NCBI GenBank assembly: GCA_900696515.1 | Contig: CAADGK010000028.1 | Location: 1 to 39,421, forward strand | Source of the DNA: an uncultured Nitrosospira sp. | GTDB taxonomy: Bacteria; Nitrospirota; Nitrospiria; Nitrospirales; Nitrospiraceae | Direction: 5' to 3' | Length of the DNA: 39,421 nucleotides | Shown: one piece after another, positions 2,264 through 29,290 of the stretch | Layout of the letters: every line of letters begins with the position of its first letter | Numbering within the stretch: position 1 is the first letter of the stretch | Made by a program: the position numbers and the translations under genes | The notes under the pieces: generated by a model | Databases searched by the model: none | What the model was told of the DNA's origin: nothing | What the model saw: only the letters and a program-made list of their open reading frames with translations

Positions 2264-3298
2264 ATGATCCGCTATTGGTGGTTGAAGTCATTTTACCCGT
2301 ACGTCTCTGTATTGTGTGCCGGGCTTGTCTCACTGATGTGCGCGTGCCCCCTCATGGCTGAGACGATGCCACTCAGCCAAGACGTGTTTCAGCGCGCGAA
2401 ACAAGTGACCGTAGGAATTCTGGCAGACACCCAGGATGAACGAACGCCGGCGAAGCCAGGGAAGGTCGCTGTGCGAGGTACAGGATTTCATCTGCGAGAC
2501 GGGTACGTGGTCACTGCCAGGCATGCTGCAGAAAAGCATGACCCGACGACTGGCACCATCATCCAGAAGCGAATCCGCATCCTGACGAATGATCTGCATG
2601 AACTTCCAGCCGATCTCGTCGGTGACAGCGCATTTATGGATGTCGTGCTCTATCGTGTGGCCGAACCGCATCGCTCAAAACTGCAGACAGGAACCTCATT
2701 TGTCACCGGAGACGTTGTGCCTGGGATGGAGGTCTTCACGGTCGGCTATCCGCTGGGCTGGGGGCCGACCATGGCCTTTGGCAGGCTTGGGAATACCAAC
2801 ACCTTTCTTCAAACGGTTGATACCCGCCTGATTCAAGCGGATCTTTCGGCATGCAGCGGTAATTCAGGAGGAGGACTCTTTAACGGGCAGGGAGATATTG
2901 TGGGAATCGTGCACGCGGTGATTCAGACTGATAAGGAAGACACGCAGAGCTACTGTAGCCGTATGGCATTCGCAATTCCAGGCATTCTCGCTGAGCGGAT
3001 CGTCAACGCGGCAGTCTCCGGAAAACCGCTCGCCTTCTCCAAGCTTGGCCTTCACCTGACTTCGGTCAAGGATGGCACGAGGCTGCGCGTGGCGGTGAAG
3101 GATGTCGCCGAGCCAGCCAAAGCGGCAGGTCTGCAGAAACATGATATCTTGCTAGCCATTGAAGATACAGAGATCCTGGATGCCGCCCAGTTAAAGAATT
3201 TCCTGATTGAGCGCACGACCCCGGGTCAGGAGGTCTCTATTAAAGTTCGCCGGGTTGATGCAGACCTTACGTTTCATGTCGTGCTGGGCGGCGGGTGA
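2264..3298 (+). CDS. Secreted trypsin-like serine protease with C-terminal PDZ domain (HtrA/DegP-like)
   Basis: 344 residues, exported by a signal peptide that ends around residues 30-33 (CPLMAETM). A trypsin-like protease domain follows. The catalytic triad is visible: His87 in TARHAAE, Asp126 in FMDVVLY and Ser201 in SGNSGGGLF. A PDZ domain occupies about residues 262-344 (AGLQKHDILLAIEDTEI). This is the HtrA/DegP plan with a single PDZ, about 100 residues shorter than E. coli DegP. Periplasmic quality control or regulated proteolysis is the expected role. GGAAGGAG 7 bases before the ATG supports the start. It lies upstream of the kinase/regulator pair in the same direction, separated by 146 bases. 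Confidence 0.88.
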   Translation: MIRYWWLKSFYPYVSVLCAGLVSLMCACPLMAETMPLSQDVFQRAKQVTVGILADTQDERTPAKPGKVAVRGTGFHLRDGYVVTARHAAEKHDPTTGTIIQKRIRILTNDLHELPADLVGDSAFMDVVLYRVAEPHRSKLQTGTSFVTGDVVPGMEVFTVGYPLGWGPTMAFGRLGNTNTFLQTVDTRLIQADLSACSGNSGGGLFNGQGDIVGIVHAVIQTDKEDTQSYCSRMAFAIPGILAERIVNAAVSGKPLAFSKLGLHLTSVKDGTRLRVAVKDVAEPAKAAGLQKHDILLAIEDTEILDAAQLKNFLIERTTPGQEVSIKVRRVDADLTFHVVLGGG

Positions 3299-3444: not shown

Positions 3445-5481
3445 ATGAAAATTGGGACGATTCGTGCTCGAATCATGCTGGCGATCGTGCTGGTGGGATG
3501 TATTCCGTTGTTGATTGGGCTTGTTCTTGCCTATGTTTCTGGCATGCGGTCTCTTCGAGATGTGATCGGCGGCAATCTGCAAGCGGTTGCAGTTCAAGCA
3601 GCTGAGCGAGTGACAATGATGGTCCAGGCAGAGGTTCAAGGTGTTCGGTTGTTAGGGAACACGCCATTGCGTGTGCGCCAGCCGGTTGAGGTGGTCAACA
3701 GATCCTATCCAACGGATCATGAGAGCGTGCTACACCTCATTTCAGAACGCACGCGGCTTTGGGACAAAGGGGTAGAGAGTGCAGGGCGATTGATGGACAG
3801 CGATCTCTCCCGTTTTCTTCGGGAAACAAAGGTTCGTGACGGGGATAAGGTCGTTGGGCTGCTCATCGTGGATCGATATGGGGCCCTGGTTGCCGCGAGT
3901 TCCGATCCAGACCACTTCTTTTTCGGGGATGAATCGTGGTGGAAAGCCGTCCAAACGGGTACTGGAGACCAAGTGTATATCAGCGGAATGATTCCGGCCC
4001 ACGAGGGATCGTTTCGGACTCCCGAAGAGACGATCGATATCGCCGTGCCCATTCTTGACGACCGACAGCGTATTGTCATTGGGGCCGTCAAAGCCTCGTA
4101 CCGCTTCGATACACTCTTCGCCATGGTGAAACAGATTCACATCGGGCAAACCGGCCACGCGATGCTGTTCGATGATGCAGGAAATCCTCTCGTCTGTCCG
4201 ATTCTTCCGAGGCAGGCGCACCGAATTCCCAGTCAGTTGATGGCAATGATCGTATCGTCCGAACCTGGGTGGGGGATCGCCGAGGATGATGGACATGGCG
4301 CGACGGATACCGTTGTTGGGTATGCCCCTATCGCCCAGCTCAGGATACCGGACAATCCGTGGCATGTCTTTGTACGTCAGCAGCCGGCGGAGAGTTACGC
4401 GCCAATTCGGGATCAATTGCGGAATCTAGCTCTGATCGGCATCATCATGTTGGGCCTTCTGTGGGCCATCGGACAATTTGTGGCGGCGCGCATTGCTCGA
4501 CCGATTCAAATTCTGCACAGTGGTGTCGAGGCGATCAGTCAAGGCACGTACGAGCAGCCGCTTAATATCCACACGGGCGACGAGTTTGAAGAGTTAGCGG
4601 TCGCCGTGCATCGCATGGCCGACCGGCTCAAGATCTCCCGGTCTGAACTCGAGGGGCTCAACAAGGATCTGACTCGCCGGGTTGAGGAAAAGACACAGGA
4701 AATCACCAAGCACATGCGTAGCCTTGAGTTAGCCGAGCGTCTGGCCACCCTTGGCAAGGTTGCGAGCGGGATTGCTCACGAGATTAACAATCCACTGGGG
4801 ATTATTCTCAATCGTATTGAATGTATGGAAGCGGATGCGGCACGGTCCCCGATCTCTGAAGAGGTGCGGCGGGATCTTCTTGCGGTCAAGGCACAGGCCG
4901 AGCGTATTTCCAGGGTGACCAAAAGCATTCTCACGTTCTCGCGCGGGACGGTCACGACGTTAAAGCCTGTCGATGTCAATTGCATTGTGCGCTCATGTGT
5001 CGATATGGCAGGCGAGAGAATGTCGGCTCTGTCCGTTAGACTTGAATGTGTCCTTGCTCAGTCGCTTCCGCCGGTCATGGGTGATCGCGATCGACTTGAG
5101 ACTGTCATTCTTAACTTGATCAACAACGGGATTGATGCGGTGAGTCAGGAAGGCATCAATGGTGTCGTGACAGTTCGGACGAGTACAGCACAGATGGATG
5201 GCAGGCCGGGTATTGAGGTGTCGGTCTCCGACAACGGTCCTGGGATTCCGGACGAAATCATAGGCAGAGTGTTTGATCCGTTTTTCAGCACGAAACCGGC
5301 AGGCCAGGGAACTGGGTTGGGATTGTTTCTCGCGTATGGGATTGTCGCGGACCACCGCGGACGGATTGAGGTGAAGAATGGGGCGACAGGAGCACGGTTC
5401 GTAGTCGTATTGCCCGCTCTTGGCCTTTCACCGACGGCAGATGAAGAGGCGGTATGGGACTCGCAGGTAAAATTCTCATAA
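3445..5481 (+). CDS. Membrane-bound sensor histidine kinase (dCache-like sensor, HAMP, HisKA, HATPase)
   Basis: 678 residues. A transmembrane helix at about 9-31 is followed by a periplasmic region of about 290 residues with the look of a double Cache sensor (DRYGALVAASSD, then a second part with GHAMLFDDAGNPL). A second transmembrane helix lies at about 328-348, then a HAMP linker (RIARPIQILHSGVEAIS), a coiled stretch and the HisKA domain. The phospho-acceptor is His445 in SGIAHEINNPLG. The C-terminal ATPase shows the N box (LINNGIDAV), DNGPGIP and GTGLGLFLA. This is the NtrB/ZraS-like class that partners sigma-54 activators. Its 3' end overlaps the next gene by 28 bases, so the two are translated together. 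The sensed signal is not readable from sequence; metal or redox stress is an inference from the neighbours. Confidence 0.92.
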   Translation: MKIGTIRARIMLAIVLVGCIPLLIGLVLAYVSGMRSLRDVIGGNLQAVAVQAAERVTMMVQAEVQGVRLLGNTPLRVRQPVEVVNRSYPTDHESVLHLISERTRLWDKGVESAGRLMDSDLSRFLRETKVRDGDKVVGLLIVDRYGALVAASSDPDHFFFGDESWWKAVQTGTGDQVYISGMIPAHEGSFRTPEETIDIAVPILDDRQRIVIGAVKASYRFDTLFAMVKQIHIGQTGHAMLFDDAGNPLVCPILPRQAHRIPSQLMAMIVSSEPGWGIAEDDGHGATDTVVGYAPIAQLRIPDNPWHVFVRQQPAESYAPIRDQLRNLALIGIIMLGLLWAIGQFVAARIARPIQILHSGVEAISQGTYEQPLNIHTGDEFEELAVAVHRMADRLKISRSELEGLNKDLTRRVEEKTQEITKHMRSLELAERLATLGKVASGIAHEINNPLGIILNRIECMEADAARSPISEEVRRDLLAVKAQAERISRVTKSILTFSRGTVTTLKPVDVNCIVRSCVDMAGERMSALSVRLECVLAQSLPPVMGDRDRLETVILNLINNGIDAVSQEGINGVVTVRTSTAQMDGRPGIEVSVSDNGPGIPDEIIGRVFDPFFSTKPAGQGTGLGLFLAYGIVADHRGRIEVKNGATGARFVVVLPALGLSPTADEEAVWDSQVKFS

Positions 5482-6863
5482 TTGATGACGAGCCAGAGGC
5501 GTTGGAGAATTGTCGTCGGATTTTGAGCCGAGTGCCGTATGAGTGCCTGCTGGCCTCCGATCCCAATGATGCTCTGGATATGCTTGAACGGGAACGACCC
5601 GGTCTCGTGCTGACGGATCTACGAATGCCAAAGCTCGATGGAATGGAGGTCTTGGCTGCCGCCAAACGAAAGGATCCGACAGTCCTCGTCGTGCTAATGA
5701 CCGGTCATGCCACCATTGGAACAGCAGTAACGGCTATGCGGCACGGTGCCTTTGACTATCTCGCCAAGCCGTTTACGAGCGATGAACTTGTGCAAGTTGC
5801 GCGGCGCGCATTTGACTCCCTTTCGACCATTGCTGGTCTCGGTTCGCGCCGTGGTGTGCTGATGGAGCGATCATCACTGCGTTCGTCGGATGATGGGGTT
5901 CAGCTCGTCGGGAACAGTGTCTCGATGAATGAGGTATTGGCGTTAGTTAATAAAGTAGCGCCCACTGATTCCAATGTTCTGGTGTACGGAGAAAGCGGGA
6001 CGGGTAAGGAAATGATCGCGCGTTTGATTCATGAAGCAAGTTATCGAGTTGACCACCCATTTATCCCCGTGGATTGTGTGTCTCTTCAGGACTCCCTTTT
6101 GGAGACCGAACTGTTTGGTCATGAGAAAGGCGCCTTCACCGGTGCTCATGCCGCAAAGGCCGGGCTTTTTGAGGCGGCGGACGGTGGAACCATTTTCCTC
6201 GACGAAGTCAGTGGGATGACCGCAAATCTGCAAGCGAGGCTGCTCCGTGTGTTACAGGAGAGGCATGTGCGACGAGTCGGCGGGACACAGTTCACATCTC
6301 TGAATGTTCGTATTATTGCGGCTTCCAACCAAGATCTTGAAGTCCTGTGTAAGAGGGGGACGTTCCGTGAGGACCTCTACTATCGGCTGAACGTGATTCC
6401 CTTGCGGCTTCCCCCTCTCAGGGCCCGCGGGGAGGATATTCTCCTACTGGCCAACGAATTTCTAACCCGATTTGCGCAGCGGGTTCGAGCTGAGGCTAAC
6501 ACAGTTCCGACGATCGACCCATCAGCTGCGGATCTTCTCATGCGGTATGCCTGGCCTGGCAACGTGAGGGAGCTACAAAATGTCATGGAACGAGCTGCTG
6601 TGTTGGTTGATGGGGCCATTGTGACAAGCGCACATTTACCGGAACGGTTCCTTGCGTTGACTGATCGAGACGCATCGCCATCCGAATCAAGTTCTTACAA
6701 GCAAGCGAAGCAGCAAGCGGTAGAGTCCTTCGAGCGAAACTTCTTGGTCGATCTTCTCAAGCGTTACGACGGGCATATGGGGCGGGCAGCTCGTGAAGCT
6801 GGCGTAGATCGAAAAACGATCGAGCGCATGGTGAAGAAACACGGCCTCCGTGGGTCATTCTAA
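5454..6863 (+). CDS. Sigma-54-dependent NtrC-family response regulator
   Basis: 469 residues with three domains. The receiver (about 5-120) has acidic residues Asp11/Asp12, the phospho-acceptor Asp55 in LVLTDLRMP, and the KPF switch lysine. The AAA+ domain (about 150-380) has Walker A GESGTGKE, the sigma-54 contact motif GAFTGA, Walker B GGTIFLDE and an R-finger segment. A Fis-type helix-turn-helix ends the protein (GRAAREAGVDRKTIERMV). It overlaps the kinase gene by 28 bases and is its evident partner. The GAFTGA motif is intact, so it should activate sigma-54 promoters. Targets are unknown; the first large oxidase gene starts 431 bases downstream in the same direction and is a natural candidate. 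Confidence 0.94.
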   Translation: MGLAGKILIIDDEPEALENCRRILSRVPYECLLASDPNDALDMLERERPGLVLTDLRMPKLDGMEVLAAAKRKDPTVLVVLMTGHATIGTAVTAMRHGAFDYLAKPFTSDELVQVARRAFDSLSTIAGLGSRRGVLMERSSLRSSDDGVQLVGNSVSMNEVLALVNKVAPTDSNVLVYGESGTGKEMIARLIHEASYRVDHPFIPVDCVSLQDSLLETELFGHEKGAFTGAHAAKAGLFEAADGGTIFLDEVSGMTANLQARLLRVLQERHVRRVGGTQFTSLNVRIIAASNQDLEVLCKRGTFREDLYYRLNVIPLRLPPLRARGEDILLLANEFLTRFAQRVRAEANTVPTIDPSAADLLMRYAWPGNVRELQNVMERAAVLVDGAIVTSAHLPERFLALTDRDASPSESSSYKQAKQQAVESFERNFLVDLLKRYDGHMGRAAREAGVDRKTIERMVKKHGLRGSF

Positions 6864-7294: not shown

Positions 7295-10200
7295 ATGGGT
7301 ATTTCAAGAAGGTATGTATGGCCGAGGATACTGGGGGGAGCAGCCAGCCTCATAGTGCCTTTGGTAGTATCGATGGCGTGGGCTGCTCAGCAGCATGATC
7401 ACCAGGGCAGCGCAGGAGAAGCGTCTGCGAAAAAGGTGATCTATCGTGAAGGTGGGTCAGTCCTTCACGACCGCATGATGGATGAAATCAAGCGGCAGCA
7501 GGAATTCATCGGCAAGAAGGGCGGCTACAACACGGGTGCCAACAGTCACATGATGCAACAAGGTGTGCTGTTGGTCGCTGATGATCCGGACAAGGTCTCG
7601 GTCACCAACGGGCAGCGATGTCCGGCGAACGCGCCAGTCAAGGACTACCATGTCTCAGCGATCAATATTGAAATCACGCTGAGTCGGTTTCTCGATTACT
7701 TTCCCGGGTACATGTACGTTCTGAATGAAAACCTGGATAAGGCACGGGCCGAGGAGACGGCCAACAAGGAGGCACGGGAGAAGGAGAATGACTACGGCGC
7801 CGTGTCGAACGGTCTGCAGGGCGATGTGATCCAACCGCTGGTCATCAGAGCGAATCAGGGTGACTGCCTCAAGATGACGCTCCACAACCGGATCGCTGAT
7901 GAACCGACCAATCTCGTGATCAACGGTTCATCGATGGTGGTGTCATCCACCGGCAAGCCGGCGACTCCGTCGAATCCGGATACGACCGTGGGAGCGGGGA
8001 AAGAGCAGAGTTTTGAGTGGTACATCAAGCCGGACACGCAAGAGGGCGCGCGGTTTCTCCGCTCACATGCCTCGCGTGAGCAGTTCAACCTCGGTTTGAT
8101 CGGCATGTTGGTCGTCGAGCCGCGCGGCTCACGGTATCTCAGTCCGTTCGATGGGAAGCCGATGGCCAGCGGCTGGGAAGCCATGATCGAAGATCCGAAC
8201 GGCGCGGACTTCCGCGAATTCGCGATTTTCTATCACGAGGCCGGAGATGAAGCGTTTCGCATTTTGAACAAGAAGGGCGAGATGTTGCCGCAGCGCGATC
8301 CGCACACCGACTCGTATCGGCCGGGAGCGCGTCTGTTGAACTATCGCAGTGAACCGCATGGTACCCGTATCGAACTCCAGGCGCACATGGGGTTCTATGG
8401 CGATGAGTCCATGGCGTACGGGTCCTATACATTCGGCGACCCGGCCACAACCATTCCCCGCTCTTACATGGGCGATCCGGCCAAATTCCGGATGGCGGGT
8501 GGGTCGGAAATCGTGCACTCGCACCACCTCCATGGCGGGTCCATCCGTTGGGCACGGCAGCCGGGGAACAGCAACCTGGACTTTGCCGCTTCCAGCAACG
8601 GGCCGGTGAAGTTTCCGCTCATCAGCGACACCTCTGATCGTCTCGACGTGCAATCCATTGGGCCGACGGAGATTTATGACCAGGTGATCGAGGGCGGTTC
8701 AGGAGGATTGCAGGCGTTGGCGGGTGAGTTCGTCTTCCACTGCCACATCCCGCAGCATTATGTCACGGGCATGTGGGGATTCTGGCGGGTATACAACACT
8801 CTGCAAGCGCCCGGGTTTCAGACTGACGTGATGAAGCCCTTGGTCGAATTACCTGACCGTGTGGGCCGCATGAGGACCGGTGTGGCGAGCGATAAGCTCG
8901 TGGGGACGCTGGTCGATTGGTACGGTGGAAAGAAATTTGAGATCACGAAGGACAAGACGGATTGGAAGGGCAATCCGGCGAAGGTCTCCATCAAGGATTG
9001 GGTTGAGATGATGGTGCCGCCGCAGGGTAAGCCAGGGCACAAGAACACGGAGAAGGAGCAAACCCTGGCCTATGACTCGACCGTCAACGATTGGGCCTGG
9101 GACGGGATGAAGGCTCTGTCGGAACCTGAAACGACATATGAATGGGTCAACTATAAGTCGGCAACTCCGGGCAAGCGGCAGGACATCCTCTTTGATCCGC
9201 GAAGTGGAAAACTGGCTTGGCCGTGGCTGCGACCGCATCTCGGCAGACGGGTGCCCTTCGCGCCGAGCCACAGCGGCGCGCCATGGTTGGAACCGATTCA
9301 TCGACGGGATGACGGCAGCAACTCAACCGAACCGCCGAAGCCGGGCGAGCAGGGACCCTGGAGCCTCTGTCCGGAAGGCGCACCGGTCAAGAAGTTCAAT
9401 ATCCACGCAATCACCTTGCCGATTACCTTGAAGGCGGCGACGGCCAAGACGCCGGCGATCGTCGATCCGGGTGGCTTGCTCTATGTCTTGCATGAAGAGG
9501 AAGCCGAGGTCCGAAAGAATCGAGCGAAGCAGTTTCCGCTGGTCATTCGTGGAAACGTGCAGGATTGTATCGACGTCGTCTATAAAAGCGAGCTGAAAGA
9601 TGATACGCGGCAAGGGTTCTCCAGCAAGACGAACCTGCATCCGCACATGTTCCAGTTCGACACGCAAGCGTCCGATGGACCCATCATCGGCTTCTCCTAT
9701 GAGATGTCGCTCCGTCCGTTCACGATCTTGAAGGACGAGCACCCGGGGAAGGGTATGCCGGTTCCGATGAACACGACGATCGAGGCCGATGCCGCCAAGG
9801 GGGCGACCAGCATCAAGGTCAAGGATGCCTCCAAGTTCCACGTCAAGACGGAGTTGGGCGTGGGGATGGATGAAGTGAACGGATTCGAGTCGGCCCGTAT
9901 CAGCAAGATCGATGGCAATACGATCACTTTTGAGCGGCCGTTGCTGCATGCTCATAAGAAGGGTGAGATCGCCTCGGTCGAGTGGATCCGTGAGCGCTGG
10001 TATGTGGACGCCGATTTCGGCACCACGTTCTGGCATGACCATGTGTACGGACTTGATTCGTGGGGGCACGGGCAGTATGCCTCCTTCATCACGGAGCCGC
10101 CGCGATCGACCTATCATGATCCAGTGACGGGTAAGGAAATCAGGAGCGGACCGGTCGCGGACATTCACACGACCGAACCGGTGTCCGCCCATATCAAGGG

Positions 10201-12034
10201 ATCGTTCCGTGAGATCGTGACCCATGTCATGGATTCCAACCCCCGGACGGCGGAATTGATTACAGCCGACAATCCGCAGGCGAGGGTCAACGCCATTTCG
10301 GTCGACGGGACACCGTCGGCGGTCTATCCCGCGAAGTTGAACCTGTCGCCGATGAAGTTCTTGAACGGCGGCGAAGCCACGACCGGTGGTGGGTACAACA
10401 TGCGGATAGAGCCCTTGTCTGTCCGCTTGGCCAACAATCCGGATCCGTCGCAGTTGTTCAGCAGTCGGATTCACGGAGATCCGGATACGCTGATGTTGCG
10501 GGCCTACCTGGGTGATCCAGTGGTGGTCAGGCTCCTTGAAACGTCGGCCAACGAAGTGCATTCCTGGCACATCAGCGGTCACTGGTTCCCGATGGAGCGG
10601 TATAGCAAGAACTCCATCCCGCGCAGCTCGCTGCACGTCGTAATCGGGGAACGGTACGATGCGGCTATTCCGGCCGCCGGCGGACCGCAACAGATGGCGG
10701 GCGACTACCTGTACTACAGTGGTCGTGCGTCGCACTTCGTCGAAGGCAGCTGGGGAATTGTCCGAGTCCTGGACAAGGCGGATGCGACACTCAAGCCGCT
10801 CCCAGGGCGCAGCGAGATTCCACAGTCGGCCAAGTCGGTTTGTCCGGCTGATGCACCAGTGAAGAGCTTCAACGTCTCGGCTATCGACAAGGCGATCCGC
10901 TACAACAAAGGAACGCCTGGAACGATGGAAGTCGACCTGGAGCGCAAGATGGTGCTTGGGAACGAAAGCGGGAAGATGTACGTGCTCGAAGGCGAAAAGA
11001 CCAAAGTCGCCTCGGGCAATCTTGAGCCAAGCCCATTGACGCTGCATGTCAACGTCGGGGATTGCATCAAGGTCAATCTGAAGAATGAAATGGCCAAGGA
11101 CCGCGCAGGGTTCCACGTGGACAACCTCGCGTATGATCCGAAGGAGTCCATGGGCATCAATGCGGGCAACAATCCCGGCGATCAGACGGTCGCACCGGGC
11201 CAGAGTAAGACCTATACGTTCTATGCCCATCCCGAGTTCGGGGAGAACTCGGCTCTGATCCAGGACTGGGGGAACGTGATCGAGAATCCGCGGAACGGAC
11301 TCTTTGGCGCCGTCATCATCGGGCCGAAGGGATCGCAGTATCGCGATCCGGTGACCGGCGAGGATTTGGGCCAGAAGAGCTCGTGGAGGGCGGATGTGAT
11401 CGTCGATCGGACGGTGTCAGGAAACGAAAAGCGGCAGAACTACCGCTCGTTCGCACTCCTGTTCCAGGACGAGGACAATATCATCGGAACAAGCTTCATG
11501 CCGTACATCCAAAAGGTGGCCGGCGTGACGGCGGTGAACTATCGGTCGGAGCCGACTGATTACCGTACCGAGAAGGGCTGCGCCTATAGCGAAGTGCTCG
11601 CCTGTGTGAAGACGGGTGACCAACCGGTGACGCCGACGATCGCGGCGCATGTTGGAGATCCGGTCGTCATTCATGTGCTGGGCGCTTTCAGTGAACAGGT
11701 CCAGCTCTTCAGCGTCTCCGGCCATGAGTGGAAACATGAGCCGTATATCAACGGGGCAGACCTCGTGAGCACCATGGAGTTCGGTGGGTCCGAAGTCTTC
11801 AATGCCTGGTTGCACGGCGGAGCCGGCGGACCGAACGGGGTACCTGGTGACTATCTCTGGCTCAACCAACGCCCAGGCTACCTTGATGCCGGACATTGGG
11901 GGATGCTGAAGGTCCTGGACCGAGATAGTCGTGCGATCCTTCCGCTGAGCGGCAAAGCTCCGGCTACACAACATGCCGACGGTAAGTCCTCAGCCAAATC
12001 CACTCCAGTGTCTCTGAAGGCCAAGGCCAAGTAG
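7295..12034 (+). CDS. Giant secreted multicopper oxidase, three cupredoxin pairs (copy 1)
   Basis: 1579 residues. The ATG at 7295 has GGAGAGGAGG 9 bases upstream and opens directly into a signal peptide (MGISRRYVWPRILGGAAS, cleavage near AWAAQ). Upstream in-frame ATGs lack this and would spoil the signal peptide. Three two-domain cupredoxin units lie at roughly 60-520, 690-1170 and 1190-1550. Unit 1 ends with HSHHLHG (His408-His413) and HCHIPQHYVTGM (His482, Cys483, His484, His488, Met493), a complete type-1 plus type-2/3 set. Unit 2 begins with HPH (782-784) and HDH (914-916), but its last domain lacks the HCH motif. Unit 3 shows no copper set. In the first domain the HxH motif reads LRSH, where copy 2 has FHSH. 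Length and plan are like MofA/McoA/MnxG-type metallo-oxidases; the substrate is unknown. Confidence 0.9.
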   Translation: MGISRRYVWPRILGGAASLIVPLVVSMAWAAQQHDHQGSAGEASAKKVIYREGGSVLHDRMMDEIKRQQEFIGKKGGYNTGANSHMMQQGVLLVADDPDKVSVTNGQRCPANAPVKDYHVSAINIEITLSRFLDYFPGYMYVLNENLDKARAEETANKEAREKENDYGAVSNGLQGDVIQPLVIRANQGDCLKMTLHNRIADEPTNLVINGSSMVVSSTGKPATPSNPDTTVGAGKEQSFEWYIKPDTQEGARFLRSHASREQFNLGLIGMLVVEPRGSRYLSPFDGKPMASGWEAMIEDPNGADFREFAIFYHEAGDEAFRILNKKGEMLPQRDPHTDSYRPGARLLNYRSEPHGTRIELQAHMGFYGDESMAYGSYTFGDPATTIPRSYMGDPAKFRMAGGSEIVHSHHLHGGSIRWARQPGNSNLDFAASSNGPVKFPLISDTSDRLDVQSIGPTEIYDQVIEGGSGGLQALAGEFVFHCHIPQHYVTGMWGFWRVYNTLQAPGFQTDVMKPLVELPDRVGRMRTGVASDKLVGTLVDWYGGKKFEITKDKTDWKGNPAKVSIKDWVEMMVPPQGKPGHKNTEKEQTLAYDSTVNDWAWDGMKALSEPETTYEWVNYKSATPGKRQDILFDPRSGKLAWPWLRPHLGRRVPFAPSHSGAPWLEPIHRRDDGSNSTEPPKPGEQGPWSLCPEGAPVKKFNIHAITLPITLKAATAKTPAIVDPGGLLYVLHEEEAEVRKNRAKQFPLVIRGNVQDCIDVVYKSELKDDTRQGFSSKTNLHPHMFQFDTQASDGPIIGFSYEMSLRPFTILKDEHPGKGMPVPMNTTIEADAAKGATSIKVKDASKFHVKTELGVGMDEVNGFESARISKIDGNTITFERPLLHAHKKGEIASVEWIRERWYVDADFGTTFWHDHVYGLDSWGHGQYASFITEPPRSTYHDPVTGKEIRSGPVADIHTTEPVSAHIKGSFREIVTHVMDSNPRTAELITADNPQARVNAISVDGTPSAVYPAKLNLSPMKFLNGGEATTGGGYNMRIEPLSVRLANNPDPSQLFSSRIHGDPDTLMLRAYLGDPVVVRLLETSANEVHSWHISGHWFPMERYSKNSIPRSSLHVVIGERYDAAIPAAGGPQQMAGDYLYYSGRASHFVEGSWGIVRVLDKADATLKPLPGRSEIPQSAKSVCPADAPVKSFNVSAIDKAIRYNKGTPGTMEVDLERKMVLGNESGKMYVLEGEKTKVASGNLEPSPLTLHVNVGDCIKVNLKNEMAKDRAGFHVDNLAYDPKESMGINAGNNPGDQTVAPGQSKTYTFYAHPEFGENSALIQDWGNVIENPRNGLFGAVIIGPKGSQYRDPVTGEDLGQKSSWRADVIVDRTVSGNEKRQNYRSFALLFQDEDNIIGTSFMPYIQKVAGVTAVNYRSEPTDYRTEKGCAYSEVLACVKTGDQPVTPTIAAHVGDPVVIHVLGAFSEQVQLFSVSGHEWKHEPYINGADLVSTMEFGGSEVFNAWLHGGAGGPNGVPGDYLWLNQRPGYLDAGHWGMLKVLDRDSRAILPLSGKAPATQHADGKSSAKSTPVSLKAKAK

Positions 12035-12781: not shown

Positions 12782-13567
12782 ATGAAACGAACCATAATGA
12801 CGGGGCTTGGCCTCGCAATCTGTGCGTACATGACCATCGCGGCGGGGAGTCCGTTGGATGCCTTGGCGTATGAGTCGGGGACCGTGGTAAATGGAGCGAC
12901 CGTACAAGGCAAGATTACCTTCACGGGAACCGTGCCGGAGCCGAAGACGTTCGAGTTGCGTCGCTATTACGACCGGGAGTATTGCGCAGCTCTTTCAGAC
13001 GGAAAAGGACATCGCCTTCTCCGGGAAGTCAATGTCGGACAGGACGGCGGTCTCAAGGACGTGGTGGTGGTCATCGAGGGTATTGAGAAAGGCAAGCCGT
13101 TCACCTTCACCGACGCGGAAGTGGAGGCCAGTCTGTGCCAGTTTCTGCCGTTTGTCACCGTCGTCAGCGACAAGCGTCGGGTGACGGTGTTTAATCGAGA
13201 TCCGGTGTCTCATGATATTCAAGGTTACGCCTACGATCAGTCAGGGGTGGATATCGTGCTTCATCGGCCGGCGCTGCATGTGAGCGGGACGACCGATATG
13301 GTCCAGCTGGTCAAGGGGAGGAAAGTGTTCACCATGCAGTGCGGGATGCACCCCTACATGCAAAATTGGGGATATGCGATCGATAATCCCTATTATGCCG
13401 TGACCGGCCCCAATGGGGCGTTCACGATCGGCGATCTTCCGGTTGGGACCTATCGCATCAAGGCTTGGCACCCGATTCTCGGAGCCCAGGAACGGGAGAT
13501 CACGGTAAAGCCCAATGAAGCTTTTACCGTCGACTTTCTATTCGAAGCGAACCAGTCGGTAAAGTGA
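12782..13567 (+). CDS. Periplasmic plastocyanin-like copper protein with C-terminal carboxypeptidase-regulatory-like domain
   Basis: 261 residues, signal peptide ending near residues 28-30. A cupredoxin domain follows. The candidate copper ligands are His144 in VSHDIQGY and Cys187, His190 and Met193 in the loop CGMHPYMQNW, the usual C-x2-H-x2-M arrangement of small blue copper proteins. The C-terminal 55 residues (GAFTIGDLPVGTYRIKAWHP) resemble the carboxypeptidase-regulatory-like beta-sandwich often fused to such domains. GCAGGAGG precedes the ATG. The stop overlaps the start of the SmbP-like gene. It could pass electrons or copper to or from the large oxidase; that is inferred from context. 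Confidence 0.82.
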   Translation: MKRTIMTGLGLAICAYMTIAAGSPLDALAYESGTVVNGATVQGKITFTGTVPEPKTFELRRYYDREYCAALSDGKGHRLLREVNVGQDGGLKDVVVVIEGIEKGKPFTFTDAEVEASLCQFLPFVTVVSDKRRVTVFNRDPVSHDIQGYAYDQSGVDIVLHRPALHVSGTTDMVQLVKGRKVFTMQCGMHPYMQNWGYAIDNPYYAVTGPNGAFTIGDLPVGTYRIKAWHPILGAQEREITVKPNEAFTVDFLFEANQSVK

Positions 13568-13992
13568 TGTCGAATCATTCATCACGATCGGCGCAAATCT
13601 TTCTTGGATCTCTTCTCTGCTGGCTCACGATTGGGGATCATGCTGTCTCGGCGGCGTCCCTAACGGACATCCGGGAGCAAGGCAGGACCATGGTCAAGGA
13701 TGCAGAAGAGATGGTGATGCACGGCGGCATGGGCGACGGGCATGCGATTGTTCATCACTGTGCCGAAGTCTCGAAACAGGCTCAGTCAATCCTCAAGGCT
13801 TTGCCCGCGGCTGATGCTCATGGCAAGGAAGCCGTGCCGCATTTGCAGGATGCGATTAAGCATTGTGCACGAGTGGCGGAACTGGGAGATAAGGTTGATC
13901 CAGGCGTCAGCTTGAATCCGGCTGTGAAAGCCAGGGCTGCGGCCAAGGAGGCGATGAAACATCTGTTGGCCATGAAGGACGGCGGTGCGTAG
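13567..13992 (+). CDS. SmbP-like periplasmic metal-binding protein
   Basis: 141 residues. A signal peptide (cleavage near AVSAAS) leaves a small helical protein with regularly spaced histidines: MHGGMGDGHAIVHHC, AHGKEAVPHLQ, IKHC and MKHL. This matches the pattern of SmbP, the small four-helix copper-binding periplasmic protein described in Nitrosomonas. Eight His, two Cys and several Met remain after cleavage. The ATG at 13567 overlaps the TGA of the preceding gene (TGATG), which implies translational coupling; a GTG three bases earlier is an alternative start. It probably buffers copper or another metal beside the multicopper oxidase. Confidence 0.75.
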   Translation: MSNHSSRSAQIFLGSLLCWLTIGDHAVSAASLTDIREQGRTMVKDAEEMVMHGGMGDGHAIVHHCAEVSKQAQSILKALPAADAHGKEAVPHLQDAIKHCARVAELGDKVDPGVSLNPAVKARAAAKEAMKHLLAMKDGGA

Positions 13993-14785: not shown

Positions 14786-15664
14786 TCATCGGTGAATAGA
14801 CTTCGCACAGCGAAACCCGATAGTGGCCGCACGCTGTTCGGGTGAGGCCCCGCTTCTGGTTGCGGTTCGCAGCAACGTCGGAGCACTCTTCCAGGACCCT
14901 CCACGGACGACTTTGTAGCGGCCCTGCTTTGCGCCACGTGGGTTACGATCAGGCATGGTCGCATAATAGTCGATCCCAAACCAATCGTCGACCCACTCGG
15001 CGGCATTGCCCGCCATGTGATGCAGGCCATAGGGACTTCGGCCTTCCTCGCCGCTCTCGACCGATGCCACGATGGGAATTTCATGTACATGATACTGACC
15101 GAACATGGCCAGGCCTGGTACGGGAGGTTTTTGTCCCCAGGGAAAGAGGTCGCCTTTGACACCCCGGGCAGCTTTTTCCCATTCCGCTTCGCTTGGGAGG
15201 CGTTTACCCTGACTGCGGCAAAAATCCGACGCCTCAACCCAGGTGACATAGAGAGCAGGCCATCGGGTCAGGGTCTCCGGCTGTACCGCATGGACGGTGA
15301 TCATGTGCTCGATCAATTTGAGCAAATCGCGAGAAACGGGACGGCTCTGTCGGTGGAGCCAAGATAGGAATTCGCCAAGACTGATCTCATCGCGATCAAT
15401 TGCAAAGTGGTCGAGCCACACCTGTCGCTGCGGCTGTTCGGTGTCATCATATGGGAGATCCAGGCTGAAAAGGTCTTGGCCGGCTTTGGCCGTTCCCATG
15501 AAAAATAGACCTTCGGGGATGGTGATCATGGGAGAGCTTCTGGCAAGGGACGCGATACGTTCATACGGGGAGGACTCTTCCGTCCTTCCGGTCGTCGGAG
15601 ACAGCAATAGAGCAAGAAGTATCGGGATCGTGAGGAAATGGGACAGGGTGAGTGTTTGTTTCAT
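14786..15664 (-). CDS. Secreted FGE-fold (SUMF1/NirV-like) protein, paralog 2
   Basis: 292 residues with a signal peptide (MKQTLTLSHFLTIPILLALL). Family signatures are PMITIPEGLFFMG, DRDEISLGEFL, LPSEAEWEKAARG, PYGLHHMAGNAAEWVDDWF, VRGGSWKSA and IGFRCA. The post-RGGSW stretch has no cysteine, so formylglycine synthesis is not expected. It is a close paralog of the protein at 1050-1949, sharing VHEIPI and RWPALYVTW. It is divergent from the second large oxidase gene, with 451 bases between their starts, so a shared regulatory region is possible. An accessory role in maturing or binding the oxidase, by analogy with NirV beside NirK, is inference only. Confidence 0.86.
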   Translation of the reverse strand: MKQTLTLSHFLTIPILLALLLSPTTGRTEESSPYERIASLARSSPMITIPEGLFFMGTAKAGQDLFSLDLPYDDTEQPQRQVWLDHFAIDRDEISLGEFLSWLHRQSRPVSRDLLKLIEHMITVHAVQPETLTRWPALYVTWVEASDFCRSQGKRLPSEAEWEKAARGVKGDLFPWGQKPPVPGLAMFGQYHVHEIPIVASVESGEEGRSPYGLHHMAGNAAEWVDDWFGIDYYATMPDRNPRGAKQGRYKVVRGGSWKSAPTLLRTATRSGASPEQRAATIGFRCAKSIHR

Positions 15665-16115: not shown

Positions 16116-19100
16116 ATGAGTGATTCAAGAAAATGGACGAGGCCGGGAATCTGGGGGTTCGCCGCCAGCCTGATCTTGGCCGGGGCGTTGCCGGCTAGTG
16201 CGATCATGTCGCACGATGCCCATATTGCCAAGGATACGAAGCAGGACCTGGCAAAGCCGGTCCATGCGCAAGCTGGTCCTGTGTTGATGGACAAGATGTC
16301 GAAAGCCGTCGACCAGATCGAGCGGCAGGTTCACAGCAAAGGACCGTTCCAGGGGGCCAGTGCCCATGCGATGCAGCAGGGGGTACTCCTTGTTGCGGAT
16401 GACATGGACAAGGTGAAGGTAACACAGGGCGGACGATGTCCGGCCCATGCGCCGGTTCGGGCCTATGACGTGACGGCGATGAACGTCGAGATCACCGTCA
16501 ATCGGTTCGGCGATTTTTATCCGGGCTTCATGTATGCCCTGACCGAAAATGTTGCGGGCGTGCGTGAGGAAGAAACGAAGAATAGGGCGGCACGGGAGAG
16601 CGAAGATCCGAGCTTTGCCGGTGGTGCAGTGTCGAACGGCCTCCAGGGTGATTTGATTCAGCCATTGGTCATTCGAGCCAACCAGGGCGACTGTCTCCGG
16701 ATCACCCTTCGCAATCAAATCGAAGGTGAGCCGACCAATATGATCATCAACGGCTCGCAATTGCTGGTGGCCAGCAACGGCAAACCGGCGACAGCCAACA
16801 ATCCGGATGCATTGGTGGCGTCAGGCAAGACGGGTGAATTTGAGTGGTATATCCAGCCAGATACACAAGAGGGTGGCCATGCCTTCCATAGCCATGCCTC
16901 ACGAGATCAGTATTCGCTCGGTCTATTGGGGTCGCTCGTGGTGGAGCCTCGCGGCTCTCATTTCTTGAGCCCCTTTACCGGCGAGGAAATGAAGAGTGGC
17001 TGGGAAGCCATCATTGACGTGGACAAGGGATCGGACTTCCGGGAGTTCGTGATTTTTTATCACGAAGCCGGTGACGAGACGTTCCGCCTCCTGAACCGCA
17101 AGGGCGATATGCTCCCGCAGCGCGATGCGCATACCGATACCTATCGGCCGGCCGCTCGGTTGCTCAACTATCGCAGCGAGCCGCATGGCACCCGGTTGGA
17201 AATGCAAGAGCATCTGGTTGGTTTTGCCGATGAATCGCAGGGCTATGGGTCCTATACGTTCGGTGACCCAGCCACGACGATTCCGCGTTCCTACCTTGGT
17301 GATCCCGCGAAGTTTCGGATGGTTGGTGGATCAGAAATTGTCCACTCTCACCATCTACACGGTGGGTCGATCCGTTGGGCCAGACAGCCTGGAACCAGCA
17401 AGCTGGATCCGACGTTGTCAAAGAACGGTCCAGTCAAGTTTCCGATGATCAACGACACATCTGATCGTCTGGACGTGCAATCAATCGGACCGTCCGAGAT
17501 CTATGATGAAGTGATCGAGGGTGGATCCGGCGGGTTGCAATCGCTGGCCGGAGAATTTGTGTTCCATTGCCATATCCCGCAGCACTACGTGACGGGTATG
17601 TGGGGCTTCTGGCGGGTCTACAATACGCTGCAACAGCCTGGCTTCCAAACCGATGTCATGAAGGCACTGGTGGAATTGCCGGATCGAAAGGGCAAGATTA
17701 AGCCTGCTGTCAGCTCCGATAAGTTGGTCGGCACCACGGTTGATTGGTACGGCGGGAAGAAGTGGGAAATCACAAAGGATAAGACGGATTGGAAAGCCAA
17801 TCCTGTTAAGGTTTCCATCAAGGATTGGGTTGAGTACATGCTTCCGCCTCAGGGATTGCCTGGGAAGACGGAAGATCAGGTGAAGCAAGCGCAGGCGAAT
17901 GATCCGACGGTGGTGAATTGGAAGTGGGAGGGTGCCTTGGCTCTCAATGAGCCGGAAACTCCTCACAAGTGGGCGGACTATGTGTCGCCGACGCCGTTAA
18001 AGCGGCCTCCGATCACGTTTGATCCCCAGACCGGCAAGTTGGCGTTCCCGTGGCTGCGTCCGCACCTTGGGAAACGTCCGCCGTTTGCTCCGAACCACGG
18101 GGGTGCCCCATGGTTAGAGCCGTTCCATGTGAGGGAGGATGGTACCAAGAGCACTGAGCCGCCGAAGCCCGGTGAACAGGGTCCATGGAGTCTGTGTCCG
18201 GAGAATGCTCCCCGGAAGTTCTTCACGACTCACTCCATCACGTTGCCGATCACGCTGAAACCAGCTACCGCTAACTCTGCGGCGTTGGTCGATCCAATCG
18301 GCATGATCTATGTATTGCATGAAGAGGAAGCAGAAGTTCGGAGCAACCCAAAGAAGCAAGTACCGTTGGTCATTCGCGGTAACGTCTACGATTGCGTGGA
18401 CGTGATCTTTAAAAATGAAATTCCGGACGATGCGCGGACCGGTTGGTCCAACAAGATCAATCTTCACCCGCACTTCTTCCAGTTCGATACGAGCGCGTCC
18501 GATGGTCCAACCATCGGCTTCTCCTATGACATGTCCCTCAGGGCCTTCACGATGCTGAAGGATCCACAACCGGATAAGGGCATGCCCTTGCCGGGGAACA
18601 CGGTCCAAACGGCGGATTCCAAGGCCGGGGCCCGTAGCATCACCGTGGCGGATTCCTCCAAGTTCCATGTGAACATCGAACTTGGAATCGGCATGGATGA
18701 CCCGAAGTATTTTGAAGTGGCTCGGATCAAGGCCATCAACGGGAAGAACATTACGTTTGATGCGCCGTTGAAGTACGCACACAAGAAGAACGACATTGCC
18801 AGCGTGGAATTCATTCGTGAGCGTTGGTACGTCGATGTGGATCTTGGAACGGTGTATTGGCATGATCACGTGTTCGGTACGGACACGTGGGGCCATGGGC
18901 TTTTCTCGGCGTTCATCACGGAGCCGCCCCGGTCGACCTATCATGATCCGGTCACCGGTAAAGAGATCCGGAGTGGTCCCGTCGCGGACATCCACACGTT
19001 GGAGCCGGTCTCGGCCCATATTCGTGGAAGTTTCCGTGAAGTCATGATGCACATCATGGACAGCAATGCCAGAACGGCGGAGCTGATCACGACCGACAAT

Positions 19101-20855
19101 CCTCAGGCGAGGATTGGAGCGGTCACGGTGGACGGGCCGCCGTCGCACCAGTTCCCTGAGAAAATCAACAAGTCTCCGATGTGGTTCTTGAACGGTGGTG
19201 AAGCCACGACCGGCAGCGGCTACAGCATGCGTGTTGAGCCGTTGAGCGTGCGTCTCGCCAACAATCCGGACCCGTCGAAGCTGTTCGTCTCGGGAATTCA
19301 CGGTGATCCAGGGACTCCGTTGCTGCGGGCGTATCTCGGTGACCCGATTCTTGTTCGGGCACTGGTCGGCTCAGCCAATGAAGTCCATACGTGGCATGTC
19401 ACCGGGCACTGGTTCCCCATGGAACGGTACGCCAAGGATGCGATGCCCCGTAGCACTGTGCACCTCGTGATCGGTGAACGGTACGATCCGGCCATTCCTG
19501 CAGCCGGCGGACCGCAGAAGCAGGCGGGCGATTACCTCTATTACAGTGGTCGCGCCTCGCACTTTGCGGAAGGCAGCTGGGGTATTTTCCGAGTATTTGA
19601 CGAGTTGCAGGCCGATCTGAAACCGTTGCCGAGTCGGGAGCAAATTCAAAAGTCCGCTCCGTCGGTCTGTCCGGCGGATGCTCCTGTGAAGACCTTCAAT
19701 GTGTCGGCGATCGATCAACAGATCCGGTACCACGATGGAGCGCCGGGTGTGATGGAAGTCGATCTCGAACGTAAAATGGTCTTCGGCAATGAGCAGGGGA
19801 AGATGTACGTCCTCGATGGTGATCGTGGTCGGGTCAAGGCCGGCGAGTTAAAGCCGAGCCCCTTGACGCTGCACGTCAACGTCGGTGATTGCGTGAAGAT
19901 CAATCTGAAGAATGAGATGGCAAAGGAACGAGCCGGATTCCACGTCGATATGATGGCGTTTGACCCGAAGGACTCGTTCGGTGCCAATGTCGGCAATAAT
20001 CCCGGCGACCAAACGGTTGCGCCGGGTCAGAGCAAGACCTACACCTATTATGCCCATCCGGAGTACGGAGAGTTGGCCGCACTCATTCAGGACTGGGGCA
20101 ATGTGGTGGAAAACCCGCGCAATGGGTTGTTCGGATCCATCATTGTGGGTCCGAAGGGTTCACGGTATCGTGATCCGGTGACCGGTGAGGATGTGACGAT
20201 GAAGAGCAGTTGGCGCGCCGACGTGCTCGTTGATCGGACCATCTCCGGCCAGGAGAACCGGAAGAACTATCGTGACTTCTCGTTGATGTTCCAAGACGAG
20301 GATAACATCGTCGGTGTGAGCTTCATGCCCTACATTCAGCAAGTGGCCGGTATTACGGCGGTGAACTACCGTTCGGAACCGACCGCGTGGCGGATGGAAA
20401 AGGGCTGCGATATCCCCGAGGTCTTTGCCTGTGTGAAGGCCGGGGAGACGCCGTCGACTCCGTTGCTCCAGGCTCATGTCGGTGATCCAGTGGCGGTTCA
20501 CGTCCTGGGTGCCTTCAGCGAGCAGGTGCAGCTGTTCACGATCGACGGTCATGAATGGCCGCACGAGCCGTACATGCAGGGTGCCGATCAGGTCAGCACC
20601 ATGGAGTTCGGCGGGTCTGAGATCATCAATGCCCACTTAACTGGTGGCGCGGGCGGTCCTAACCGGATCGTCGGTGACTATATCTGGAAGAATCAGCGTC
20701 CGGCATACGCCAACGCCGGCCAGTGGGGCCTCTTCCGGGTGCTTCCGACGGACGATCAACGGATTAAGCCGTTGACGCCGCAGGTGCCTCCAACCAAGAC
20801 CGCCAAGCAGAATGGGAAGGCAAAAGCCTCTCCCGCTTCGCTGAGCGTCAAGTAG
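16116..20855 (+). CDS. Giant secreted multicopper oxidase, three cupredoxin pairs (copy 2)
   Basis: 1579 residues, the same length as copy 1 and alignable with it over almost the whole protein. GGGAGGG 7 bases before the ATG and a clean signal peptide (cleavage near PASA) support the start. Copper motifs: HAFHSH (His255, His258, His260) in domain 1; HSHHLHG (410-416) and HCHIPQHYVTGM (His484, Cys485, His486, His490, Met495) in domain 2; HPH (784-786) and HDH (916-918) in domain 3; HTWHVTGH (1091-1098) in domain 4. Domains 5-6 have lost the ligands. An inserted beta-module (about 830-890, with AGARSITVADSSKFHV) sits between the HPH and HDH motifs. It should act in the periplasm or at the outer surface. 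The substrate is unknown; metal or phenol oxidation is possible. Confidence 0.9.
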   Translation: MSDSRKWTRPGIWGFAASLILAGALPASAIMSHDAHIAKDTKQDLAKPVHAQAGPVLMDKMSKAVDQIERQVHSKGPFQGASAHAMQQGVLLVADDMDKVKVTQGGRCPAHAPVRAYDVTAMNVEITVNRFGDFYPGFMYALTENVAGVREEETKNRAARESEDPSFAGGAVSNGLQGDLIQPLVIRANQGDCLRITLRNQIEGEPTNMIINGSQLLVASNGKPATANNPDALVASGKTGEFEWYIQPDTQEGGHAFHSHASRDQYSLGLLGSLVVEPRGSHFLSPFTGEEMKSGWEAIIDVDKGSDFREFVIFYHEAGDETFRLLNRKGDMLPQRDAHTDTYRPAARLLNYRSEPHGTRLEMQEHLVGFADESQGYGSYTFGDPATTIPRSYLGDPAKFRMVGGSEIVHSHHLHGGSIRWARQPGTSKLDPTLSKNGPVKFPMINDTSDRLDVQSIGPSEIYDEVIEGGSGGLQSLAGEFVFHCHIPQHYVTGMWGFWRVYNTLQQPGFQTDVMKALVELPDRKGKIKPAVSSDKLVGTTVDWYGGKKWEITKDKTDWKANPVKVSIKDWVEYMLPPQGLPGKTEDQVKQAQANDPTVVNWKWEGALALNEPETPHKWADYVSPTPLKRPPITFDPQTGKLAFPWLRPHLGKRPPFAPNHGGAPWLEPFHVREDGTKSTEPPKPGEQGPWSLCPENAPRKFFTTHSITLPITLKPATANSAALVDPIGMIYVLHEEEAEVRSNPKKQVPLVIRGNVYDCVDVIFKNEIPDDARTGWSNKINLHPHFFQFDTSASDGPTIGFSYDMSLRAFTMLKDPQPDKGMPLPGNTVQTADSKAGARSITVADSSKFHVNIELGIGMDDPKYFEVARIKAINGKNITFDAPLKYAHKKNDIASVEFIRERWYVDVDLGTVYWHDHVFGTDTWGHGLFSAFITEPPRSTYHDPVTGKEIRSGPVADIHTLEPVSAHIRGSFREVMMHIMDSNARTAELITTDNPQARIGAVTVDGPPSHQFPEKINKSPMWFLNGGEATTGSGYSMRVEPLSVRLANNPDPSKLFVSGIHGDPGTPLLRAYLGDPILVRALVGSANEVHTWHVTGHWFPMERYAKDAMPRSTVHLVIGERYDPAIPAAGGPQKQAGDYLYYSGRASHFAEGSWGIFRVFDELQADLKPLPSREQIQKSAPSVCPADAPVKTFNVSAIDQQIRYHDGAPGVMEVDLERKMVFGNEQGKMYVLDGDRGRVKAGELKPSPLTLHVNVGDCVKINLKNEMAKERAGFHVDMMAFDPKDSFGANVGNNPGDQTVAPGQSKTYTYYAHPEYGELAALIQDWGNVVENPRNGLFGSIIVGPKGSRYRDPVTGEDVTMKSSWRADVLVDRTISGQENRKNYRDFSLMFQDEDNIVGVSFMPYIQQVAGITAVNYRSEPTAWRMEKGCDIPEVFACVKAGETPSTPLLQAHVGDPVAVHVLGAFSEQVQLFTIDGHEWPHEPYMQGADQVSTMEFGGSEIINAHLTGGAGGPNRIVGDYIWKNQRPAYANAGQWGLFRVLPTDDQRIKPLTPQVPPTKTAKQNGKAKASPASLSVK

Positions 20856-28405: not shown

Positions 28406-29290
28406 TTAGAAGGCGTCTCTCGCACAACGAAAGCCGATCCCGGTAGCGCGGTCCGTGGGTCTGGCGTAGTCACGGTCGGCGACGCGAAGGTTTCGTGCGG
28501 GTTTGAGCCAGGATCCACCTCGCACGACCTTGAGAAGTTTCCCGTTCGGACCTTGAGGATCGGAGAGGGGGGCGTTGAGGTACGAATAGGGTTCATACCA
28601 ATCCTGCACCCATTCCGCGGCGTTTCCGGTCATATCGAGGAGGCCATAGGGACTGGCTCCTTGGGGGAATGTTCCGATCGGGAGTGTCAACACTTCGCCC
28701 TTGAGTCCCTGTTCCTGCGACATACGCGCACCGTCGCCGGCCATCCAGAAGGATTTCCATGCTGCTCCGTCTTTGAATTCGATCGTGTGTCCGGCCCAAT
28801 AACTCGCGCTGTTACTGGAAAAGTTGTCCCAGCCCATTCCCCAGGGATAGCGCCGGCCGTCTGTGCCGCGTGCGGCCTTCTCCCATTCCGCTTCGGTCGG
28901 GAGCCGTTTCTTCTGCCACTGGCAATAGGCGGCGGCATCGTACCAGCTGACGTTAACAACCGGATGCTGTTCGCTTCCCGGGAGCGGGGCCGTCTGGTTC
29001 CACAGATTAAATTGCGGGGTGAGATGGCTTGGCGGCGGATGTCCGGTGCCGTCGACAAAATGTCGATACTGGGCGTTGGTGACTTCATGGCGATCAATCG
29101 AAAAGGGTGCGAGATAGACCAGGCGTTGCGGATGCTCGTCGTCGTAACTCAGACCGTCCTCCGGGCTGCCCATGAGGAATTCTCCGGCTGGAATCACGAT
29201 CATGTCCGGGAGAGCCCCGGCCTGGGCGGTTGATTCGTGATTCATGAACGCGAGGAACAGCGCACAGCAGGCGAGCAGTCGGACCATCAT
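28406..29290 (-). CDS. Secreted FGE-fold (SUMF1/NirV-like) protein
   Basis: 294 residues with a signal peptide (MMVRLLACCALFLAF, cleavage near AQA). The domain is more canonical than the other copies: MIVIPAGEFLMGSPEDG, DRHEVTNAQYRHFVDGTGH, HPVVNVSWYDAAAYCQW, LPTEAEWEKAARG, PYGLLDMTGNAAEWVQDWY, VRGGSWLKPARNLR and IGFRCARDAF. No cysteine follows RGGSW, so it is probably not a formylglycine generator. Its ATG overlaps the stop of the heme-oxygenase-fold gene by four bases. It is only distantly related to the paralogs at 1050 and 14786. Confidence 0.87.
   Translation of the reverse strand: MMVRLLACCALFLAFMNHESTAQAGALPDMIVIPAGEFLMGSPEDGLSYDDEHPQRLVYLAPFSIDRHEVTNAQYRHFVDGTGHPPPSHLTPQFNLWNQTAPLPGSEQHPVVNVSWYDAAAYCQWQKKRLPTEAEWEKAARGTDGRRYPWGMGWDNFSSNSASYWAGHTIEFKDGAAWKSFWMAGDGARMSQEQGLKGEVLTLPIGTFPQGASPYGLLDMTGNAAEWVQDWYEPYSYLNAPLSDPQGPNGKLLKVVRGGSWLKPARNLRVADRDYARPTDRATGIGFRCARDAF

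Follow-up and report, generated by a model that had tools for sequence, protein, structure and literature searches.

Two genes encoding large proteins with multicopper oxidase motifs lie on the forward strand of the window, a stretch of 39,421 nucleotides from an uncultured member of the Nitrospiraceae. The two products share 70% identity, and a stretch resembling a signal peptide could be recognized by eye at the N-terminus of each. In both copies Pfam detected Cu-oxidase_3 and Cu-oxidase_2 above cut-off, with the strongest stretches in the first third. The genes, their units and their copper motifs are located as follows.

7295–12034, + strand: copy 1, six-domain multicopper oxidase, 1579 aa (ATG at 7295, frame open from 7217)
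7607–8854, + strand: unit 1 of copy 1 (domains 1–2), about residues 105–520, from self-alignment and MnxG alignment
8516–8533, + strand: HSHHLH of copy 1, residues 408–413, domain 2; roles assigned by multicopper oxidase homology
8738–8773, + strand: HCHIPQHYVTGM of copy 1, residues 482–493, domain 2; from conservation and MnxG alignment
9347–10834, + strand: unit 2 of copy 1 (domains 3–4), about residues 685–1180, from self-alignment and MnxG alignment
9638–9646, + strand: HPH of copy 1, residues 782–784, domain 3; aligned with HIH of MnxG, putative trinuclear site
9713–9982, + strand: insert in domain 3 of copy 1, about residues 807–896, between both HxH motifs
10034–10042, + strand: HDH of copy 1, residues 914–916, domain 3; aligned with HDH of MnxG, putative trinuclear site
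10835–12031, + strand: unit 3 of copy 1 (domains 5–6), residues 1181–1579, from self-alignment; without copper-ligand motifs
16116–20855, + strand: copy 2, paralogue of copy 1, 1579 aa
17343–17360, + strand: HSHHLH of copy 2, residues 410–415, from motif positions and conservation
17565–17600, + strand: HCHIPQHYVTGM of copy 2, residues 484–495, on the same basis
18465–18473, + strand: HPH of copy 2, residues 784–786, on the same basis
18861–18869, + strand: HDH of copy 2, residues 916–918, on the same basis

The four motifs of copy 1 were found exactly at the residues given in an earlier note on this DNA (408–413, 482–493, 782–784 and 914–916), and those of copy 2 are offset by +2 residues. 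Both copies have the order which that note described, with HxxHxH and HCH preceding two HxH motifs. Its statement that unit 3 lacks ligands also holds: a motif scan of this unit found no HxH, HCH or HxxH in either copy. Following the standard roles of multicopper oxidase residues, we take H408, C483, H488 and M493 of copy 1 to be the type 1 copper ligands, and H411, H413, H482 and H484 of domain 2 together with H782, H784, H914 and H916 of domain 3 to be the trinuclear ligands. The sole HCH in each copy lies in domain 2, so that type 1 ligands would be confined to this domain, and sequence alignment with MnxG (PDB 9bxa) divides the trinuclear ligands between domains 2 and 3. Several further histidine clusters were seen. 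HAFHSH is present in domain 1 of copy 2 (residues 255–260), and the motif scan detected no HxH in domain 1 of copy 1. An extra HAH occurs at 885 of copy 1, within the domain 3 insert. HSWH/HTWH is found at 1089/1091 in domain 4, at the position expected for HxxHxH; this site is partly conserved, H1096 being present almost always and H1089 and H1092 being variable.

Self-alignment revealed that domains 1, 3 and 5 are mutually alignable, as are domains 2, 4 and 6, and every odd-numbered domain has an invariant pair of cysteines (C109/C191, C692/C758 and C1183/C1257). On these grounds the chain was divided into three two-domain units. The sequences thus contain six cupredoxin domains as three pairs, and the repeats are matched along MnxG as well. 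The putative trinuclear ligands are shared equally between the end of unit 1, which also carries the type 1 motif, and the start of unit 2; a linker of about 164 residues lies between the two units. In our alignments Bacillus MnxG has nothing corresponding to the domain 3 insert, and two histidines of the insert, H849 and H887, are nearly invariant. When modelled, the insert matched a portion of 9n71_A, a phage tail tube protein (Z 9.4, rmsd 1.9 over 73 residues). Pfam gave no family above cut-off for the insert or for the linker. H314 and D318 of domain 2 are invariant, and we guess that they may mark a metal-substrate site like that of ceruloplasmin.

The top PDB match was by far MnxG of Bacillus sp. 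PL-12 (9bxa), with E 3.5e-97 for copy 1 against 1.9e-5 for the next entry; it was also the best match of copy 2 (E 8.9e-94). With a profile of copy 1 residues 96–1185 and relatives, 9bxa was the sole PDB chain at E<=1e-5 (5.4e-127). A D2-D3/D4-D5 profile retrieved it at 8.6e-119, followed by two two-domain laccases at 5.5e-6 and 7.7e-6. Domain 2 aligned to MnxG 180–377 and domain 3 to MnxG 439–616, and HxxHxH, HCH, HxH and HxH fell in register with the four MnxG motifs, in the same order and in the same domains. Counted on the alignments, these motifs of 9bxa are HxxHxH at 281–286, HCH at 334–336, HIH at 529–531 and HDH at 575–577. Since the motifs align in register, the order that had been called permuted is the order of MnxG itself. 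The solved chain is the H340A variant; the second type 1 histidine accordingly reads Ala at 340, counted on the alignment, in agreement with the title Mnx H340A. The likeness to MnxG thus comprises the motif order, the location of the ligands (domains 2 and 3) and the repeats along the chain. The differences are a length of 1227 residues in 9bxa against 1579 in copies 1 and 2, and an identity of 25% in the structural alignment. The NCBIfam MnxG model NF041487, an equivalog of 1894 positions, was also matched, with the HCH region at profile positions 461–522, likewise in the first third. However, the scores of 121.9 (copy 1) and 143.3 (copy 2) are far under the curated cut-off of 3100, and the name MnxG itself is therefore not merited. 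As judged from the alignments, copies 1 and 2 are further members of the MnxG-like six-domain oxidases, with an arrangement that is real yet already known, because MnxG has the domain 2/3 arrangement.

Published descriptions point the same way. The cited sections of a 2013 survey of 23 prokaryotic sequences (PMC3600357), with Nitrospira absent from the cited part of its table, place the trinuclear site in domains 2 and 3 of all bacterial six-domain oxidases analysed, Leptothrix included, and the mononuclear site in domain 2 only. The two proteins described here resemble these bacterial enzymes in both respects. The same sections report a trinuclear site in domains 2 and 3 for green-algal enzymes also, and between domains 1 and 6 for ceruloplasmin. 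A second paper of 2013 (PMC3618234), in the part cited, describes the motif order of Bacillus MnxG as reversed, citing work of 1996, and presents that of MofA as laccase-like; the latter is in apparent conflict with what the cited part of PMC3600357 gives for Leptothrix. The earlier note had proposed that the trinuclear site forms where domains 2 and 3 meet, the motif order being permuted relative to laccases. The alignment with MnxG and the cited part of PMC3600357 support this placement, but the unusualness it implied did not stand, as the survey sections have domains 2 and 3 in every bacterial six-domain oxidase analysed and the reversal in MnxG is described in the cited part of PMC3618234. 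Within the MnxG-like family the permuted order is the rule rather than an oddity.

Two other arrangements were considered and rejected. A laccase-like order, with HxH before HxxHxH and HCH, is reversed in both copies. Ceruloplasmin and hephaestin share six cupredoxin domains with the present proteins, and structural matches to ceruloplasmin were obtained (Z 8.7–9.0). However, a ceruloplasmin-like site between domains 6 and 1 does not agree with a unit 3 that is motif-free in both copies and a domain 1 that has no HxH in copy 1, though copy 2 retains HAFHSH in that domain.

Structure prediction was performed on two segments. The first, copy 1 residues 96–1185, was folded with 50 rows (48 of the 70 trimmed frames that were usable, together with copies 1 and 2) and gave a poor model with mean pLDDT 58.5 and pTM 0.54, domain 2 being mostly below 50; its top VIA match was nevertheless 9bxa (Z 20.2, rmsd 6.3 over 640 residues, chain 1–810). 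For the second, residues 296–968, 84 rows were used (41 D2-D3, 39 D4-D5 and the two copies of each), and mean pLDDT rose to 69.5 and pTM to 0.75. Three of the four motifs fall in stretches with values below 50 (model positions 106–128, 186–199 and 619–630). By VIA, 9bxa was again the top match of this D2-D3 model (Z 11.2, rmsd 3.7 over 387 residues, chain 171–706) and covered both domains, with low confidence at the motifs. In contrast, Foldseek superposed the model on 9bxa poorly, with an rmsd of 11.6 over 697 columns and a TM of 0.40 when normalized by query length. The domain placement is therefore MnxG-like by VIA but not by Foldseek superposition, in a model that is weak at the motifs. 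Our conclusion rests on homology and not on the models.

MnxG-like six-domain oxidases are widespread across Nitrospira and its order. A match to the oxidase (E<=0.001) was found in 57 of 59 related genomes. No substitution was observed at any of the 12 ligand residues in 65 rows from the same and related genomes, each non-expected position being a gap. These rows comprise 63 locus rows, two of which are halves of one gene, and copies 1 and 2; frames longer than 400 aa with no ambiguous residue were accepted, and four loci (L008, L027, L065 and L068) gave no row. A scan of named genomes was confined to the best 80 of 484 relatives, representing 76 distinct loci, all from Nitrospira or other Nitrospirota, with best-segment identity of up to 97%; on this basis the window itself very probably comes from a Nitrospira. 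From 72 of these loci (L101, L108, L109 and L116 yielded none) 81 frames were obtained, and here too the only departures from the expected residue at the 12 positions were gaps. The 65 rows and the 81 frames are partly of common origin. Finally, in an alignment of 10 rows with identities as low as 32%, 14 of the 49 histidines in residues 90–1579 of copy 1 do not vary, and these 14 include all 10 ligand histidines (naive hypergeometric P 1.2e-7); nor do Cys483 and Met493 vary. A chance origin of the motifs was rejected in view of the ligand conservation in the 65 rows, the 81 frames and the 10-row alignment. The data point to a large and well-conserved set of MnxG-like oxidases, often with more than one member per Nitrospira genome, in an important group of nitrifiers. 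The viral contigs scanned contained no relative of the oxidase. Two distant paralogues, L061 (about 30% identity) and L062, have HIPHLHG and HLH instead of HSHHLHG and HDH and keep 12 of 12 ligands.

Overall, we consider it very probable, from homology, that the two genes code for secreted six-domain multicopper oxidases of the MnxG-like kind, each with a single trinuclear site formed by domains 2 and 3. Both would be exported. The three cupredoxin pairs are probably arranged as a ceruloplasmin-like ring, completed by unit 3 and by domains 1 and 4, which have no full ligand set. The single type 1 copper in domain 2 (H408, C483, H488, M493) would accept single electrons from the reduced substrate and pass them through the His-Cys-His bridge (482–484) to the trinuclear site. 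There, four histidines from domain 2 (411, 413, 482, 484) and four from domain 3 (782, 784, 914, 916) would hold the copper at which O2 is reduced to water.

The surroundings of copy 1 contain several genes of potential relevance.

2264–3298, + strand: HtrA-like/PDZ protease, upstream of copy 1
3445–5481, + strand: sensor kinase (dCache histidine kinase), upstream of copy 1
5454–6863, + strand: sigma-54 response regulator, upstream of copy 1
12782–13567, + strand: protein with blue-copper-like set H144/C187/H190/M193, downstream of copy 1; possible partner
13564–13992, + strand: possible SMBP-like small metal-binding protein (Pfam SMBP E 2.2e-4, below cut-off)

In the protein encoded at 12782–13567, H144, C187, H190 and M193 form a blue-copper-like ligand set. 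None of the four varies in any of 79 rows, made up of the query and 78 matches (matches shorter than 220 aa or with stops having been left out). A relative of this protein was found in the fetched stretch of 60 of the 76 oxidase loci, again among the best 80 of 484 relatives; some loci have more than one, and many loci are truncated by a contig end. According to the cited part of PMC3578206, a single gene cluster for nitrite oxidation in Nitrospina and Nitrospira also contains cupredoxin-like proteins together with the oxidase. The linked gene is a concrete lead to the function of the oxidase, but it seems unlikely that the two proteins form a dedicated electron-transfer pair in Nitrospira and relatives. 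If they did, electrons from the oxidised metal could go to a periplasmic carrier and not solely to O2. Upstream, close relatives of the protease, kinase and regulator precede the oxidase in loci L088, L089, L090, L101, L121 and L124. A two-component system regulates manganese oxidation in Pseudomonas putida GB-1 (PMC8218464, in the part cited), and the likeness of that regulation to the kinase and regulator here is one in kind only.

As to the presumed metal substrate, Mn(II) is our leading guess, with Fe(II) and Cu(I) as further candidates. The closest solved relative is a manganese oxidase, and relatives are also present in Ca. Manganitrophus, although neither fact proves the substrate. Among the best 80 of 484 relatives, this different genus is represented by two loci of the same chromosome (57% and 62% identity in the best segment) with three frames, all having the same 12 ligands. 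The cited part of PMC9040806 reports two novel multicopper oxidases per member of the Ca. Manganitrophaceae, and that of PMC3578206 a putative multicopper oxidase conserved between Nitrospina and Ca. N. defluvii and resembling the Bacillus SG-1 enzyme that oxidises manganese. A role in oxidative-stress defence or in detoxification of Cu(I) or Fe(II), which would change the substrate and not the architecture, has only slightly less than an even chance. The presence of the oxidase in 57 of 59 relatives' genomes is broader than a manganese lifestyle, and the small-metal-binding-like gene adjoining copy 1 points weakly in the same direction (E 2.2e-4, below the Pfam cut-off). In its cited part, PMC3578206 speculated on protection from reactive oxygen species via Mn(III) for the Nitrospira/Nitrospina enzyme.

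The architecture itself leaves less room for alternatives. Two-domain laccases form their sites at subunit interfaces, between molecules. As such laccases rank next among the matches to domain 2, and as a linker of about 164 residues parts units 1 and 2, the trinuclear site could in principle join domain 2 of one chain to domain 3 of another. We regard this as very unlikely, since in the homologue MnxG both domains are consecutive in one chain and the D2-D3 model fits MnxG domains 2 and 3 jointly by VIA, though not by Foldseek. Still less probable is that the four motifs do not make up one site, with the type 1 copper serving electron transfer and the histidines of domain 3 binding another metal: the models are weak at the motifs, but the four-plus-four trinuclear histidines and the type 1 set are conserved jointly and aligned with MnxG. 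A single site within one chain, between domains 2 and 3, thus remains the preferred reading.

Two minor observations concern the genome at large. Three genes with FGE-sulfatase domains are present in the window, at 1050–1985, 14786–15664 and 28406–29290 (−). A third paralogue of the oxidase in the same genome is split across contigs C126 and C35 (L003 and L004), the ends of which have 127 identical bases in common.
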